Below, in pieces: positions 30,028 through 37,493 of a stretch of 44,120 nt of DNA. The position numbers were made by a program, and so were the translations under genes. Every line of letters starts with the position of its first letter. Within the stretch, counting starts at the first letter, position 1. Under the pieces are notes generated by a model. The model worked only from the letters and a program-made list of their open reading frames with translations, was not told the origin of the DNA and made no database searches. Origin of the DNA: a virus; IMG/VR virus record IMGVR_UViG_3300032285_002887, positions 1 to 44,120 of that record. The stretch is one strand, 5' to 3'.

Positions 30028-32997
30028 ATGCCTAATCCCTGGGAAAAATACGCCGCTCAACAAGACAGCGGACCGTGGTCGAAATATCAATCTCCCACGC
30101 AATCATTTGCCAGTAATCAACCGCCCGCGCTTGGGTCGCAGGAAATTTCTGATTCAATCACGTCCTTACCTGAAGAAGTAGCGCATAAAATCGGCGTTGC
30201 AGCGCGTCCGTGGGGCGCGCTAGGCGCTGCCATGACGGCCGGAGGAGTAAGCGGCGGAGTCGTTGGAGGGCTAACAACTGGCCCCGCTGGAATTATACCA
30301 GGCGCTTTAGCCGGCGCGCCGATGGGCGCTGTTGCTTATGGCGGCGCGCATTTGGCCGACCTTCCGGTCATGGCCGTCAATGGTATTGGTAGCCTTTTTG
30401 GGTACAACCCAGGCATTCCGTATCCAGGAGCAACGTTTGACGAATTCGTCAACAATCACCTTAATCCGCTTCCGGAGCCGGTAACGACCGCAGACAAGTA
30501 TCTCGCCGCTACGTCAGGTGGCATTAAAGATGCCGTTGCCGGCAACAAGGTTGGCAAGTTTATGGAAGCCGGTCAGGCCCTTGGTCCTGTGTTTCAGAAA
30601 ATCGGTACAGCCATGTCTGATGCGCCTGGCAAAAATATGGTCATGGGCGGTACTAGCGGCGCTGGCGCGCAGTTTGGTGACGATGCCACGGATGGTTCAA
30701 CGGTTGGAAAAATCGGAGGAGCCGTCTTACCTGTTGTCGCTATGGGCGCAACCACGGGGCTAACTCGTCGCCTTGTAAACTCTTCTGGTGGGTACAGACG
30801 AGGATTCATGGGAAGAGGCGAGGATGTCGTCATGCAAAATGGCGAAACAATTCCTGCTTCCTGGGGATTCACCGGAGGAAGGTTGGAAAACGCGCGTCAG
30901 ATGGCGCAAAATCAAGTCCAGGATCAATTACAGAACACCATTTCAAAAGCCGGAGGTTCGGTCGCGGATGTTGTTTCGGAGCTAGACAAATCCGCCGCGC
31001 TAGATGGAGAAGGATTCCAGCGTACATCCGGAGCGGCTTCCAAAAACCAAGGCCTTACGATGGTCGAGAACGGATTGTATCAGTCTGATCCCGCCATGCG
31101 CGCGCGCTACGAAAACAACATGCGTTCCGTCAGCGGGTCGGTCAACAATGCCGTTCAGCCGGTTGGCGCACCCATTCAGGAATCGCAAGGATTCTTTAGC
31201 CGCTTCCTTTCCAATCAGGCTAGGGCCGCTGAACGAAACGCGCAGCGTTTTGACGTTGACATGAACCGCGCCAATAAAAACTTGGCGCAGAAACAAGCCG
31301 AAATCACCAGCAGCGCGTCTTCAGACCAGCAGACAGGCGCATCTATTGCGGCCAGGAAAGAAGCCGGCAATATGATGAACGACGAGCAGGCGGCTTATCG
31401 CAAGCTGTACGCTGCCGTCCCCCGCGACACGCCGATTGAATTCAACAACTCCATCGAAAAAGGCGTGGAGGCATTGAAAGAGCATGGCGCAAATGCCGCC
31501 GTGGATCCTTCTATCAGCGCTGCGAGGTCGAGAATTGAAACCATGATCAAGGCTCGCAGCGCGGAGCCGGTCACGAATTTTGGAGAAATCGAATCTGACC
31601 TCAAGATCGTCAATAGCCTTATCAAGCAGGCAAGCAACGCCGGCCAAGACCAGGCCGTGCGGCTTTATTCCATGTTCGAGGAAGGCATTGTTGCAGACAT
31701 CGAAGCCGGCGGAGCGGCCAGTCCCGCATTGAAGCAGGCCAACGGCGCATTCCGTACCTTCAAAGAGCGCTGGAGCAACGGCGTAGCCGGCGAAGCTCTG
31801 GACAAGAATTCATTGCCCTCAGAGACGTTAAACAAATACATGGCATCCCCTGAAGGCGCCACCCAATACAGCCAAACCGTCGGGGCGACTCCGGCCGGCA
31901 AAGAATCTGCTTCGCGCTACTTGTCTGCAAGCGTGGCCCGTGCTTCTGGACAAAATCCCACCAAGGAATCTGTAACGGCGGCGATTAGCAAAAATCCCGC
32001 GATTTCTACGTTTCCTAAAGTCAAAGCAGCGCAAGAAGCCAAGGCTACTCAGATCGGCGCTGCCACCAAGATGCAGGCCAACAGGCAGGGCCAGCTTGAG
32101 CAAATGCAGGCTGATGCCGCTGCCGCTCAGAAGAAAGCCACGACTAGCCTTCCCGCCAAGTACGCCAAGGGCAGCGAGGACAGCGCTGTGTCGGCTATTG
32201 AAACTGCTTTGGGCAGCAATGATTCCACCTCTGCTATCAATGAACTAGTCAAAACAGCCAAGGCTGATCGGTCCGGAAAGTCAATGGAAGGGCTGAAAAA
32301 CGCCGCTCGCAAATACCTTTCCCAAAAGCTCTTCAATAAAACCAACGCTGCTGCCAAAAATGAAGTATCGGCTGTCACCAACGAAGACTTGCCGACTTCT
32401 ATGGCCAAAATGGGCGATGTCCTCAACGAGGACGGCACCATTATGAAGAACATGCGGAAGCTGCTTACGCCTGATGAAATTCAGACGCTTCAGACAAATT
32501 ACCGCCGCTTGGAAATGGGTACCAGGATCCGCAAAGCCGGCCTGGGAGGATCCGCTACCGCGCCAAACGAATCAGACAAAGCCGTCTTGGAAAACCTGGT
32601 AAAGGGATACACAAACATCAATGCGTTGCAGGATCTCAAGACGGCCAAAACGATGTTGCAGGATCTCAAGACGATTGCCGGATCTGCTTTTACGAACAGC
32701 CGCGTCAACGACATCATCAATGACACGCGCTTACAGGCATTTTTAGACCCTGACAAAATGAAGCAACTGCTTCTGCGTCCTACTCCCCAAAATTGGAAAC
32801 GCACGTCCTGGGCGCGCCAGCAAATGAATATCCTGGCGCAGGAAATCAACCGCAAGCCCGATGACGAATCTAATACACCTCCTGCAACTGCGCCGGCTGC
32901 AAAGCCGAAAGCGACGCCTGCGGCGACTCCGGCTGCTCAATCTTCCTCCAAGCGCATGCGATGGAATCCCGACACAGGAAAACTTGAGCCAATCTAA
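30028..32997 (+). CDS. Large ejection-type virion protein, 989 aa
   Basis: The N-terminus carries two PWxKY repeats (NPWEKYA, GPWSKYQ), a motif often seen at the start of phage DNA-injection proteins. Residues about 60-120 are Gly/Ala-rich and hydrophobic (GGVSGGVVGGLTTGPAGIIP), long enough to cross a membrane. The remaining 850 residues are helical, with coiled-coil stretches and Ala/Lys/Gln-rich segments, ending in a Pro/Ala/Thr linker and SSSKRMRWNPDTGKLEPI. It is probably the main inner-core protein. No lytic enzyme motif was seen. Confidence 0.68.
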   Translation: MPNPWEKYAAQQDSGPWSKYQSPTQSFASNQPPALGSQEISDSITSLPEEVAHKIGVAARPWGALGAAMTAGGVSGGVVGGLTTGPAGIIPGALAGAPMGAVAYGGAHLADLPVMAVNGIGSLFGYNPGIPYPGATFDEFVNNHLNPLPEPVTTADKYLAATSGGIKDAVAGNKVGKFMEAGQALGPVFQKIGTAMSDAPGKNMVMGGTSGAGAQFGDDATDGSTVGKIGGAVLPVVAMGATTGLTRRLVNSSGGYRRGFMGRGEDVVMQNGETIPASWGFTGGRLENARQMAQNQVQDQLQNTISKAGGSVADVVSELDKSAALDGEGFQRTSGAASKNQGLTMVENGLYQSDPAMRARYENNMRSVSGSVNNAVQPVGAPIQESQGFFSRFLSNQARAAERNAQRFDVDMNRANKNLAQKQAEITSSASSDQQTGASIAARKEAGNMMNDEQAAYRKLYAAVPRDTPIEFNNSIEKGVEALKEHGANAAVDPSISAARSRIETMIKARSAEPVTNFGEIESDLKIVNSLIKQASNAGQDQAVRLYSMFEEGIVADIEAGGAASPALKQANGAFRTFKERWSNGVAGEALDKNSLPSETLNKYMASPEGATQYSQTVGATPAGKESASRYLSASVARASGQNPTKESVTAAISKNPAISTFPKVKAAQEAKATQIGAATKMQANRQGQLEQMQADAAAAQKKATTSLPAKYAKGSEDSAVSAIETALGSNDSTSAINELVKTAKADRSGKSMEGLKNAARKYLSQKLFNKTNAAAKNEVSAVTNEDLPTSMAKMGDVLNEDGTIMKNMRKLLTPDEIQTLQTNYRRLEMGTRIRKAGLGGSATAPNESDKAVLENLVKGYTNINALQDLKTAKTMLQDLKTIAGSAFTNSRVNDIINDTRLQAFLDPDKMKQLLLRPTPQNWKRTSWARQQMNILAQEINRKPDDESNTPPATAPAAKPKATPAATPAAQSSSKRMRWNPDTGKLEPI

Positions 32998-33023: not shown

Positions 33024-34961
33024 ATGCCAACCCTGGTTGACATTCCAAATGTCGGAGAAGTCGAATTCCCTGACGGGATGAACGAGGCAGACATTACGGC
33101 GGCAATTCACAAAATATCGCTGCCGGCTGCGCAAGAAAGCGATCCATCCGATTTGCTTGCATCCGATGGTTTCAATTTTTTTGGCCGCAGGGAGCCTGTT
33201 CCTCGCGCTCCGCAGGCAACATCAACAGTCGGTCAAATTGCTTCCGGAATCTACAACGGCGCTGTCGCGCCGGCGCTGGAATTCATGGCTTCTCCTACAG
33301 GAATGGCAACCGCCGCCGTTCCTGCGCTTGGCCCAGCCGTTGCCCGTGGTGCGGCTGCGATTATGACGCCGCTGATGGCAAAAACCGCCATTCAGCACGG
33401 AGCGCAGGCGGTACAACAAATCCAAAATCCCAATGCCACCCTTCAAGAGAAGATAGAACCGGCTGCCGGAGCCGCTGCTGACGCAGCGATGGCGCTAGGG
33501 GTCGGTTTGCACGCTTCCAAACCCCTAAAATTACCTACCAATGTCACCCGAAGAGAAAATACAGCGCAAGCGGCAAGTGTGGGTGAAGGCGAGCAAGAAT
33601 TACAAATACCACGCAATTCAACTGATGGGTCAATACAAGATATTTCACGGTTGCCAGATGTGCGGGGAGAACGAGATTCCGGAGGCGCTGGATTACCATC
33701 ATCTGAATCCCAAGGACAAGAAATTTACCTTGAATCGCCAGGGTCGACAGGTATCCAGGAAGAGGTTGTTGGAGGAAATCCGGAAATGCGTGATTCTGTG
33801 CGCGAATTGCCACAGGAAACATCACGCGGGGAAATTGAAATTACCCAAGAATCTGCTCCGCGTACAATTAACACGGTTGGAGAAGGCCAGCTTTTTAGAG
33901 ATAATGAAATTCCCTTTAATCTCGCTGGTGAAACAGACGGTACGGCAGCAGTCGCCTCAGAAGCGGAAGCTCTAAAAGCCCAAGAGGCCGCCAAGGCGGA
34001 ACAAGATGCCGCCCAGGTCAAAATGTTTGAGGAACCGCAGCAGCCGGCGGTTGATGTAAAAACAGAGCAACCAAGCCCTGTTGTTGATCAAAAAGACCCG
34101 CTTTTGTCTGCGCTTGACGCAGACATGCAGACGGCCAGGGACGCCAAAGATACCAAGCGTCTAAACGCGCTGGCGGCATTGAAGATCAACTACCGATTGG
34201 GCAAGAAGCCGGCCATCAAAAAGCTCCAAGATACCTACGGCGAGGATGCGCAGCAGCCGACGTTGACGATGAATAAAAAGAGCGCGGCCAAACCCATGAC
34301 CAAAATGCAATTGTTCATGGAGGGGCCGGTTGCAAAGTTTGTCATCGAAAATGGCGGTTTCATGTCTCCCGCCGAAGCCAGAAAAGTGAAAGGCCGTGAA
34401 TGGTGGGATGCTACCGGAAAAGGCATGTATGAGGCGCTTGGCCGCATCCCGCCGGCATACGGAAGGCTGATTTTCAAAAAGGGAGGCAACGCTAGCACTC
34501 CGGACGACTTGATGAGTTCCGTGGGAATCCAAGATGCTTCAGGCGCTATAAGCGAATCACCATTTGGCCCCCAGGACACGCACCATGAGTTGCTGGCGCG
34601 GCTGATGGATGAAATCGAATCAGCCAAAGGTGGTAAATCGGCCCGTGGCGTCACGGCTGGCCTGAAGTCATACGATCAATACATAGATGAACAGTCCGCG
34701 CAGTCGCAGGAAATTGCAGACACCAAAGGATTAGACCTAAGCGTGGATGATCTGTCCCCTGGCGATACAATACGGCTTCCGTCTGATAGCGGCGGAGGAA
34801 TGGCTCAAGTCATGCAGGTTGACCCCGAAGGCAATGTTACGATTTCCATTCCTCACGGCGGCAAGACAAAGATGATAACGCTCCCATCCGGCCATACCAT
34901 TAAAGCCGCCGACTACATCAGAGGCGCTGAACGCGATTTGGGTAGTAGCGAGCCATTCTGA
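33024..34961 (+). CDS. Last ejection-type virion protein, 645 aa, with an HNH gene inside it
   Basis: The N-terminus reads MPTLVDIPNVGEVEFPDGMN, an anchor motif also present in the collagen-like fibre (P-x-G-E-V-x-F-P). A Gly/Ala/Pro hydrophobic stretch follows (residues about 70-135). Residues about 173-317 are low-complexity, acidic and Gln/Gly/Ser-rich because the same bases encode an HNH endonuclease in the +1 frame. The C-terminal part is compact: FVIENGGFMSPAEARKVKGR, DTHHELLARLMDEIESAKGG, then LSPGDTIRLPSDSGGG. Terminators follow the stop. The protein may tolerate the insert as a disordered linker. Confidence 0.68.
   Translation: MPTLVDIPNVGEVEFPDGMNEADITAAIHKISLPAAQESDPSDLLASDGFNFFGRREPVPRAPQATSTVGQIASGIYNGAVAPALEFMASPTGMATAAVPALGPAVARGAAAIMTPLMAKTAIQHGAQAVQQIQNPNATLQEKIEPAAGAAADAAMALGVGLHASKPLKLPTNVTRRENTAQAASVGEGEQELQIPRNSTDGSIQDISRLPDVRGERDSGGAGLPSSESQGQEIYLESPGSTGIQEEVVGGNPEMRDSVRELPQETSRGEIEITQESAPRTINTVGEGQLFRDNEIPFNLAGETDGTAAVASEAEALKAQEAAKAEQDAAQVKMFEEPQQPAVDVKTEQPSPVVDQKDPLLSALDADMQTARDAKDTKRLNALAALKINYRLGKKPAIKKLQDTYGEDAQQPTLTMNKKSAAKPMTKMQLFMEGPVAKFVIENGGFMSPAEARKVKGREWWDATGKGMYEALGRIPPAYGRLIFKKGGNASTPDDLMSSVGIQDASGAISESPFGPQDTHHELLARLMDEIESAKGGKSARGVTAGLKSYDQYIDEQSAQSQEIADTKGLDLSVDDLSPGDTIRLPSDSGGGMAQVMQVDPEGNVTISIPHGGKTKMITLPSGHTIKAADYIRGAERDLGSSEPF
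33541..33975 (+). CDS. HNH endonuclease overprinted in the virion gene, 144 aa
   Basis: The motif set is complete: C38-x2-C41 (CQMC), LDYHHLNP with the catalytic His at 53/54, a Lys-rich loop, EIRKCVILCANCHRKHH with C83, C87, C90, Asn89, His91 and His95. The Cys residues bind the structural zinc and His/Asn/His form the ββα-metal nuclease site. The gene starts at ATG 33541 after an A/C-rich leader (AAAATTACCTACCA). An in-frame TAA lies at 33526, so it cannot be reached by frameshift from upstream. The last 45 residues (from about LKLPKNLLRV) look like trailing sequence from the surrounding gene. It is probably a free-standing homing endonuclease. Confidence 0.85.
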   Translation: MSPEEKIQRKRQVWVKASKNYKYHAIQLMGQYKIFHGCQMCGENEIPEALDYHHLNPKDKKFTLNRQGRQVSRKRLLEEIRKCVILCANCHRKHHAGKLKLPKNLLRVQLTRLEKASFLEIMKFPLISLVKQTVRQQSPQKRKL

Positions 34962-35008: not shown

Positions 35009-35054
35009 AATTGCTGTCCTGGTAGCCCTCCTTGGGCGTTTCCTCCCTAGACTT

Positions 35055-35087
35055 GGGTCGGGCCAACATTGGTCCGGCCCATTTTTT
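35055..35087 (+). terminator. Intrinsic terminator of the late operon
   Basis: GGGCC (35060-35064) can pair with GGCCC (35076-35080), or GGGCCAA with TTGGTCC inside it. ATTTTTT (35081-35087) follows directly. It lies 94 bases beyond the stop of the last late gene. Confidence 0.75.
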
Positions 35088-35161
35088 ATGCAAAAAATCG
35101 CGTCGTTGGTGGTTGTTGATGGTCACGGCAAACGCGCAAAACGGGCATTCAGCGCAACAAA

Positions 35162-35187
35162 AAACCCCGCCATTTCTGGCGGGGTTT
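35162..35187. terminator. Intrinsic terminator of the decoration-like gene, works both ways
   Basis: AAACCCCGCC and GGCGGGGTTT form a perfect 10-bp stem around ATTTCT. On the minus strand TTTTTTGTTG follows, ending the gene at 35210. On the plus strand it backs up the late terminator. The stretch 34962-35209 holds terminators and no supported gene. Confidence 0.85.
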
Positions 35188-35209
35188 CCTTGATTCTGCT
35201 TTGCAGCGA

Positions 35210-36124
35210 TTAGCCGGCGAACTGGCTGGCACCAGGGAAGTCGATGTCGGGAAGAGCAACGAGCAGCTGATAGGCGCGGGATCCGTTAGGAGCGCTGTTC
35301 GGGGCGTAGGTTCCACGAACGTCGCCGGTGGAGCCGGTGGCGAGCGTGGTGTCTCCGCCCTTGAAAGTTCCAGCCGTTCCGGCAACTGCACCGTCAACGA
35401 TCTCGCGGACGATGAATCCGGATCCGCCGCTGGTTCCGCCGTTCAAGAAGAAGGGAAGACCAAGGACGGCACCGTATCCGATGCTGGTGCTGTTTCCAGA
35501 CAGCGAGGCGCTGGTGGTGACAGACGTGACGGTCTTGAAGGCCTTGGCTCCGGTTCCAGAAGTAGCGGCAGACAGGGCAATGACCTCGACGAGCTTGGCA
35601 CCATAAACATCGGTTCCGGTGACGGTGATGTTCGTGGTGACGCTGGAAGTTGCCGTGACCGTGATGTTGCGGGGGACATCAAGGGTGACAGTCGTGCTGA
35701 CAAGGCTGAAGGCAGCAGCAGCGCCAGGAGTAGCGCCAGTAGCAACACCAGCAGCAGCGGCAGCGGCAGGGCTGCCAAGGCTGATAAGCTCAATACGGGG
35801 GCGAACCACCGTACCGTTAAGCTGGGCTTTCTGAGCATAGATGTCAGGCATGGTGTCTCCACCGATCTGCTCAAGCTGGAAGGAGTAGCTGGATCCTGCG
35901 GTCCAGGTAACGCCAGACACAGGAGTCAGGGTGACAGACGTATTGGCAGACGAGCTAACGGCAAAATCCTTGGGGGCCGTGTAGATCGACTGATTGATGG
36001 CGATCTGCTGATTAGCGCCACTCTTGAAAACGCCCCAGGTAAGACCGTTGGGGAGCGTCAAGGTGAGCGCGTTGGAGTTATTTACGTCACTCGCAAGAGT
36101 GCCGGAGAGGATTTGAAACGACAT
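35210..36124 (-). CDS. Head decoration-like virion protein, 304 aa
   Basis: The product starts MSFQILSGTLASDVNNSNAL. It is very rich in Thr, Ser, Val, Ala and Gly and almost wholly beta-structured, with few charges and no Cys. Codons are strongly biased to C-ending forms, as in the capsid gene, so high expression is likely. It stands alone on the minus strand with its own palindromic upstream site and terminator. Such genes often encode capsid decoration proteins or surface fibres, but no family is certain. The leader is AATTCAACAACAACCC. Confidence 0.6.
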   Translation of the reverse strand: MSFQILSGTLASDVNNSNALTLTLPNGLTWGVFKSGANQQIAINQSIYTAPKDFAVSSSANTSVTLTPVSGVTWTAGSSYSFQLEQIGGDTMPDIYAQKAQLNGTVVRPRIELISLGSPAAAAAAGVATGATPGAAAAFSLVSTTVTLDVPRNITVTATSSVTTNITVTGTDVYGAKLVEVIALSAATSGTGAKAFKTVTSVTTSASLSGNSTSIGYGAVLGLPFFLNGGTSGGSGFIVREIVDGAVAGTAGTFKGGDTTLATGSTGDVRGTYAPNSAPNGSRAYQLLVALPDIDFPGASQFAG

Positions 36125-36296: not shown

Positions 36297-37430
36297 TCAC
36301 GGGTTGGTGATCTGTTCGACGGCTTGGATCCTTTTGCCAATCCAGGCCATCACGGGAACGGCCATTGAGTTGCCGAGAGCCTTGTATCGAGGCCCGTCCG
36401 GCGTTGATTTTCCCTTTGGTCGGATGTCGGTGTAATTGTCGGGGAAACCTTGGAGGCGTTCGCACTCAACCGGGGTCAGGCGTCGGACGGCCATTCGGTG
36501 ATTGATGATCGGCTGACCTCTGCCTGTTCCATCTTCGAAAGCGTCAAAACCTTCAGCCTTCAGCGTGTGGGTCGTGTCTCCCGTGATGCAAGTTGGTTGG
36601 GAAATCAGCGTGTCGGCCTTCGTGATGCTGTCTTGTGAGCGTAGAGTTGCGGCCTTCCCCTCGGCGTCCATCCAGTAACCGTGACCAGAGCAAACGGATG
36701 CCACCAGATCGGTTGCGTCCTTGTAGTCCCTGGCCTTCATCGCTGAAGCCGTGCCATCGTCCGAATACTCACCGAAAGCAACCATCCGAGCGGTTATTGT
36801 ATTTGACCCGCCACCGAGCGCAGAGCTTGGCCGAGCGCAGGCGGTAACTCCTTTCCCCTTTTCTCGGCTCGGCGCAGAATGCCCTGACAGGCTCGCGCGC
36901 TCAAAAAGAACCGCCGCGGCACGTCGCCAGTCTCCAGCGTATCCGACAACAAACACGCGACGCCTTCGCTGGGCCACTCCGAAGTATTGAGCGTCAAGAA
37001 CCCTGTAGGCGAACCCATACCCGAGTTCCGCCAGCCCTCCGAGGAAGGTTCCAAAAGTTTTTCCTCCGTCAATGGACAGGACGCCGGGGACATTCTCCCA
37101 GACCAACCATCGGGGCCGTAGGCGGTCAGCAAGACCAAGGAATCCGAGGGTGAGGTTACCACGAGGGTCATCCAATCCTTTTCGGAGTCCGGCGATAGAG
37201 AAGGCTTGGCAGGGGGTTCCTCCGACCAAAAGGTCGATTGGCTCGTATTGTCCAGAAGCGATAGTTGTGAAGTCTCCATGAAGTGGGGTCGTTGGGTAGT
37301 GATGTTGCAGGGTTTGGCGTGGGAAGTTTTCGATCTCGGAAAAGAAAGCCGGTTTCCAGCCTAGCGGATGCCAAGCAACGGTTGCGGCTTCAATCCCAGA
37401 GCAGACACTTCCGTATGTGATGGGTTTCAT
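36297..37430 (-). CDS. DNA (cytosine-5) methyltransferase, 377 aa
   Basis: The enzyme transfers methyl from S-adenosylmethionine to C5 of cytosine. Motif I is YGSVCSGIEAATVAWHPLGW, motif IV GGTPCQAFS with the catalytic Cys, motif VI WENVPG, motif VIII QRRRRVFVVG, motif IX RRLTPVECERLQGFPDNY, and motif X ALGNSMAVPVM. The target recognition region lies between VIII and IX (about 190-310). ATG 37430 is chosen because AAGGG lies seven bases upstream; an ATG at 37472 would add 14 residues before the conserved start. There is no restriction partner nearby, so it is likely an orphan that protects phage DNA. Confidence 0.92.
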   Translation of the reverse strand: MKPITYGSVCSGIEAATVAWHPLGWKPAFFSEIENFPRQTLQHHYPTTPLHGDFTTIASGQYEPIDLLVGGTPCQAFSIAGLRKGLDDPRGNLTLGFLGLADRLRPRWLVWENVPGVLSIDGGKTFGTFLGGLAELGYGFAYRVLDAQYFGVAQRRRRVFVVGYAGDWRRAAAVLFERASLSGHSAPSREKGKGVTACARPSSALGGGSNTITARMVAFGEYSDDGTASAMKARDYKDATDLVASVCSGHGYWMDAEGKAATLRSQDSITKADTLISQPTCITGDTTHTLKAEGFDAFEDGTGRGQPIINHRMAVRRLTPVECERLQGFPDNYTDIRPKGKSTPDGPRYKALGNSMAVPVMAWIGKRIQAVEQITNP

Positions 37431-37439
37431 TTGATGGCC

Positions 37440-37469
37440 CTTGTACCCTACGGCCTGTTGGGCAGTCAA
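37440..37469 (-). promoter_or_regulatory. Candidate promoter of the methyltransferase
   Basis: On the minus strand TTGACT (37464-37469) is followed after 18 bases by TACAAG (37440-37445). The -10 overlaps the likely SD, so the leader would be very short. An A-tract block (37471-37489) upstream is shared with the opposing early promoter and could act as an UP element for both. Confidence 0.4.
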
Positions 37470-37493
37470 CAAAAACTTTTTTCAAAAAAATCC

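Follow-up and report, generated by a model that had tools for sequence, protein, structure and literature searches.

A functional gene for a small HNH nuclease and a gene for a probable virion protein share, in all likelihood, 330 bases in two reading frames (probability of about 0.85), and the HNH frame runs on for a further ~105 bases within the same gene. The whole stretch of DNA analyzed (hereafter, the window; 44,120 bases of a virus record) is a tailed-phage genome carrying genes for a terminase, a portal, a major head protein and an internal virion protein, together with several large virion-type genes. The final large virion-type gene, a 645-codon ORF on the plus strand (33024-34961; the outer gene), lies after the terminase, portal, capsid and internal virion genes and ahead of an mmgR-like RNA. 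A second plus-strand ORF of 144 aa (33541-33975), read in the +1 frame, is wholly contained in it; this ORF begins at an ATG, and a TAA stop lies upstream in the same frame at 33526. A previous reading of this DNA from the sequence alone had described the nested ORF with these coordinates, frame, start and stop, and all of them were confirmed.

According to the explanation that we favor, the middle segment of the outer protein would be new protein sequence, obtained by reading the HNH gene out of frame and tolerated as a flexible acidic linker. The HNH protein would use its own ATG as the start on the late transcript, being initiated without a Shine-Dalgarno (SD) sequence at an unstructured A/C-rich leader. 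It could then act as a DNA nuclease, either as a selfish gene of the homing type hidden in a gene that cannot be dropped, or as a nuclease used by the phage itself.

The Nested Product and the Outer Protein

The nested product matched PHROG_2255 at 6e-25 and the Pfam family PF01844 at 3.8e-5, the latter match exceeding the gathering score. The residues C38, C41, H54, C87, N89, C90, and H91 were invariant in 34 HNH homologues and D51, H53, and H95 were nearly invariant, and all of them are present in the window HNH. The full HNH domain attributed to the +1 frame was therefore corroborated, with two CxxC zinc motifs and the H-N-H active-site residues intact, and the homologues matched the +1 frame only, as had been anticipated. 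From these motifs, the nested ORF is assigned as a putative HNH nuclease in which every conserved motif is intact. The closest annotated phage homologues of the HNH core were about 45–56% identical. The AlphaFold model had a pLDDT of 77.5, with strands at residues 50-54 and 83-87 and a helix at 88-95 (pLDDT ~90), and fell below 50 at residues 124-138. The best match of this model in a Foldseek search of PDB folds was the HNH nickase 4h9d, with a non-confident E of 0.6.

For the outer protein, no Pfam or PHROG family was matched. Its N-terminal motif, MPxIIEIPxxGEVEFPDxM, recurs in large proteins of other phage sequences (L087–L094), and its C-terminal block extends from GKGMYEALGRIPPAYG to THHELLARLMDE. 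In L087–L094 (position 6001), the motif in the form MPxIIEVPxxGxVxFPDxMxxADIxxAI opens otherwise dissimilar phage proteins of 623 to >2,000 aa; it is perhaps a common signal for virion targeting or ejection. Gene order and the N-terminal motif point to a probable virion protein of the internal or ejection type. The ejection-type label previously given to it is thus backed by these two features, and not by any Pfam or PHROG family. The overlapped part (residues about 173-317) had also been described as an acidic, low-complexity linker. It is acidic by reading and was modelled as coil, but the AlphaFold model of the whole outer protein is poor (pLDDT 41), which limits the structural half of that description.

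The Same Nested Pair in a Sister Phage

The same arrangement was found in a sister phage, L002 (IMG/VR contig 3300034198_012395, 44,554 bases). Its nested HNH gene (L002:9550-9984) has the same frame and the same ATG, and encodes 144 aa with 65% identity to the window HNH. The L002 outer homologue (680 aa) is 57% identical to the 645-aa protein, and the homologue of the upstream neighbor, a 989-aa virion-operon protein encoded at 30028-32997 on the plus strand, is about 55% identical. Because the two phages differ far more than copies of a single assembly would, the arrangement is unlikely to be an assembly artifact. When 80 IMG/VR homologues of the HNH were surveyed, only the one in L002 was nested in a clearly longer ORF, and the nested arrangement is therefore rare. 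A phage match overlapping an ORF labeled “baseplate wedge” was considered as a second nested case and discarded, the label belonging to a short call on the opposite strand.

Selection in the Two Reading Frames

The selection tests rest on one pairwise comparison, that of the window with L002, the two phages carrying the nested pair. Outside the overlap, the substitution rates at outer codon positions 1, 2, and 3 were about.32–.36,.18–.23, and.58–.61, respectively. Over 33541-33870, which corresponds to HNH residues 1-110, the rates flipped to about.45,.25, and.16, a pattern that marks the HNH frame (chi-square p = 4.5e-9). When the outer protein was held fixed and its synonymous codons were redrawn, none of 5000 simulated runs reached the BLOSUM similarity observed for the HNH (408, versus 117 ± 28 simulated). 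The outer protein cannot account for the conservation of the HNH, and the codon flip together with these simulations shows that the HNH frame is clearly functional.

The outer frame was analyzed in the opposite way, with the HNH protein fixed and the synonymous divergence calibrated to that of the flanks (0.6, from 4-fold sites). The probability that the outer frame would stay open given the HNH protein was 0.0028 and 0.0002 in the two directions. The outer amino-acid similarity given the HNH had a probability of about 0.005–0.012 for this one pair, a signal that depends on the calibration and vanishes if the synonymous divergence were 0.35. Without calibration and using the codon usage of the phage itself, 8.4 stops were expected in the outer frame across the HNH, and the probability of an open frame was about 1.5e-4. 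The chance of an open double frame had been estimated at ~0.1% from the sequence alone; its improbability was upheld and the figure itself is lower. Additionally, 4-fold sites had changed less often in the HNH (6/18) than in the flanks (99/161; p = 0.025). The codon-wise tests proposed for both frames thus reveal, in this pair, purifying selection on the HNH frame and an outer frame kept open in two diverged phages, on which the amino-acid constraint is modest.

The last part of the HNH ORF behaves differently from its core. Over 33871-33972 the outer-frame pattern is restored and the substitutions are indistinguishable from those of the flanks (p = 0.98). A related phage (L114) has a stand-alone HNH of 105 aa, the end of which corresponds to about residue 107 of the window HNH, and the window ORF continues for ~37 codons beyond this end, where outer-frame selection dominates. 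Judging from the length of the L114 protein and the low pLDDT of the model, the run-on (33871-33975) is probably a disordered extra tail. Overprinting therefore goes both ways, with the HNH core being read through in the outer frame and the HNH ORF extending into sequence of the outer gene.

Related Phages and the Origin of the Overlap

The locus was compared among relatives using the 989-aa gene upstream and the mmgR/suhB-like RNA downstream as synteny anchors. This RNA matched RF00519 over its full length in the window (35018-35094, plus strand; 62.7 bits), in L002 (11078-11157; 55.3 bits), and in L114 (4937-5015; 54.6 bits), and an mmgR-like RNA is also present in L115. In the related phages L098 and L099, whose portal is 67% identical to that of the window, the 989-type gene is followed by a stand-alone 105-aa HNH gene that begins just past the upstream stop codon, and then by the mmgR-like RNA and an integrase gene. 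The 645-aa outer gene is absent from both, and its frame carries stops at that spot. This layout may reflect a resident HNH gene that was later overprinted by a virion ORF, or a loss of the outer gene in these phages. In the HNH tree, the HNH of L114 fell into the same loose group as those of the window and L002 (support 84/83) on long branches, so that orthology is weak. The sequence of another relative, L097 (portal 85% identical), ends inside the 989-aa homologue, before the outer-gene locus could decide.

The sequence-only reading had proposed that a mobile HNH gene was inserted into a pre-existing virion gene, and had predicted relatives lacking outer residues about 173-280, with the flanks joined cleanly. 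No such relative was found in the viral contigs, phages, plasmids, and species genomes searched; no outer gene without the HNH segment was recovered from them, and the searches returned only L002 and proteins sharing the N-terminal motif. HNH-only relatives were found instead. The opposite case, an outer homologue sharing the acidic linker with a broken HNH frame, was not encountered either.

Two origins, both compatible with the shared coding described above, were weighed. A homing event, in which a mobile HNH gene entered a pre-existing 645-type virion gene whose frame happened to read through it, has a precedent in the ShiLan phage gene (PMC11855218) and agrees with the occurrence of HNH homologues as separate genes in many phages. 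An imperfect direct repeat of 15 nt (33528-33542/33838-33852) could be taken as its footprint, but it is only 80% identical, is not found at the matching place in L002, and was judged likely to be due to chance. The absence of an uninvaded outer gene from the viral contigs, phages, plasmids and genomes, and the relatives that carry the HNH without the outer gene, also speak against this origin, which we rate at somewhat below an even chance.

The other origin starts from an ancestor with the order 989-type gene, HNH gene, and mmgR-like RNA, in which a virion ORF arose or joined through the HNH gene by overprinting. The lone HNH gene of L098/L099, which starts directly behind the upstream stop and precedes the same RNA, fits this order, and so does the extension of the HNH ORF beyond its ancestral end into outer-frame sequence. 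However, the N- and C-terminal parts of the outer protein appear to belong to a single virion protein, the same picture would result if L098/L099 had lost the outer gene, and the orthology of the HNH genes is weak. We consider this origin just as plausible as insertion, again a little short of even odds. The lack of a segment-free outer homologue, together with the HNH-only relatives, suggests that the outer gene may have grown up around an HNH gene already in place. A fuller version, in which the virion gene took shape across a resident nuclease gene, the linker is HNH sequence read out of frame, and the two genes became locked together so that neither could be lost alone and the HNH is kept vertically rather than merely by homing, is put forward only tentatively and is the less likely proposal. 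Since the HNH family is widespread, the HNH reading of the overlap is the older of the two, and the middle segment of the outer protein arose de novo under either origin.

Several other features were observed downstream of the outer gene. The match to mmgR, an alphaproteobacterial sRNA, lies just past the virion operon in three related phages, in two of which an integrase gene adjoins it. It may be an sRNA carried by the phage or the operon terminator, or it may mark an attachment site within an sRNA gene of the host. The integrase is present in L002 and in L114/L115. In the window, the corresponding region (about 35100-36124) keeps only a short similar stretch, followed by a 304-aa ORF on the minus strand (35210-36124), which suggests that the integrase was replaced, possibly with a change from a temperate to a lytic lifestyle. 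Further downstream, a 391-codon ORF with a TTG start (36297-37472, minus strand) matched phage DNA methyltransferase families (PHROG_116, 5e-93).

Translation of the HNH Gene and Less Probable Readings

The 645-codon ORF could also be read as two genes flanking the HNH gene, with the frame between them open by luck. The outer constraint is weaker within the overlap than in the flanks, in keeping with this reading. Nevertheless, the outer frame is open in both phages (P about 1e-3 to 1e-4 each) and the tail at 33871-33972 displays plain outer-frame selection, and this reading is very improbable.

The leader of the HNH start (33516-33540) has no SD sequence. It is rich in A+C in the two phages (80% and 92%), with a local folding energy of zero, and the HNH ATG ranks first among the 41 ATGs of the outer gene of the window for lack of structure. 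The A/C leader reported for the window is thus found in both phages. By a simple motif test, only 2/29 listed starts of this phage have an SD-like sequence, and several of its other genes have A/C-rich unstructured leaders. The scarcity of SD sequences and the A/C-rich leaders hint at hosts or transcripts that use SD-less initiation. As the leader is shared with other SD-less genes of this phage and kept in both phages, independent initiation of the HNH is plausible. Alternatively, the HNH might be made as a +1 frameshift fusion to the N-terminal module of the outer protein, giving a nuclease borne in the virion and ejected from it. The +1 relation of the frames and the virion-type N-terminal part would suit such a fusion, but in both phages stops close the HNH frame shortly before the gene, a slippery sequence conserved between the two was not seen, and the conserved ATG with the start MSP(E/Q)EKIQ follows a leader typical of initiation; its probability is small, slightly below that of two flanking genes. 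Group I introns and inteins often carry HNH genes, but an intron or intein here is the least credible reading: Rfam gave no intron match even at E<=5, Pfam gave no Hint/intein domain, and the outer frame is open and constrained through the segment.

Comparison With Other Hidden or Interrupting Nuclease Genes

The claim that this arrangement differs from everything known is out of date, since HNH genes lying out of frame within phage genes that read through them were published in 2025 (PMC11855218). In that work, the ShiLan domain and Pacc40 gp60 are HNH genes hidden in mycobacteriophage methylases, without intron or intein features and without a ribosome-binding site (RBS). In ShiLan, the host methylase is non-essential, the HNH has a GTG start, and uninvaded alleles and a disjunct distribution demonstrate the insertion; for Pacc40 gp60, a stand-alone HNH adjoins the gene in the phages Sashimi and Tiff81 (PMC11855218).

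As in ShiLan, the window has a complete HNH in an alternate frame of a phage gene, a host frame free of stops, neither intron nor intein machinery according to Rfam and Pfam, no RBS, and a host-frame product modelled as loop or disorder, although the model of the outer protein is poor here. The differences from ShiLan lie in the host, which is a virion-operon gene, in the HNH start, an ATG with an A/C leader, in the lack of any known uninvaded allele, and in the codon-level selection detected in both frames. The HNH of a relative as a separate neighboring gene recalls Pacc40 gp60, Sashimi, and Tiff81. However, in Sashimi and Tiff81 the free HNH lies next to a host gene that was not invaded, and in L098/L099, which have the HNH, the host gene is missing. 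Free-standing small phage HNH nucleases (PHROG_2255; Felix O1-like phages) have the same HNH core as the window HNH, but those sampled are ordinary separate genes.

Among other endonuclease genes, mobE sits in the split nrdA of an Aeromonas phage, and mobA is associated with the bypassing of T4 gene 60. In both cases, as in the window, an important phage gene survives an endonuclease gene lodged in it. It does so there by being split or bypassed, whereas the outer gene reads straight through in another frame.

Therefore, hidden HNH genes are a kind already known. The present case adds another type of host gene, evidence at the codon level for both frames, retention over a long divergence, and a stand-alone copy at the corresponding locus of relatives. 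When a gene is nested in a longer one on the same strand, gene callers generally discard it, and such nucleases are thus likely to be overlooked. These results provide independent support at the codon level that hidden HNH genes function, and widen their range from a dispensable methylase to a virion-operon gene. The overlap is also a case, open to testing, of a new stretch of protein, a linker, derived from a selfish gene read out of frame, and of an endonuclease gene tying itself to a gene that the phage likely needs.
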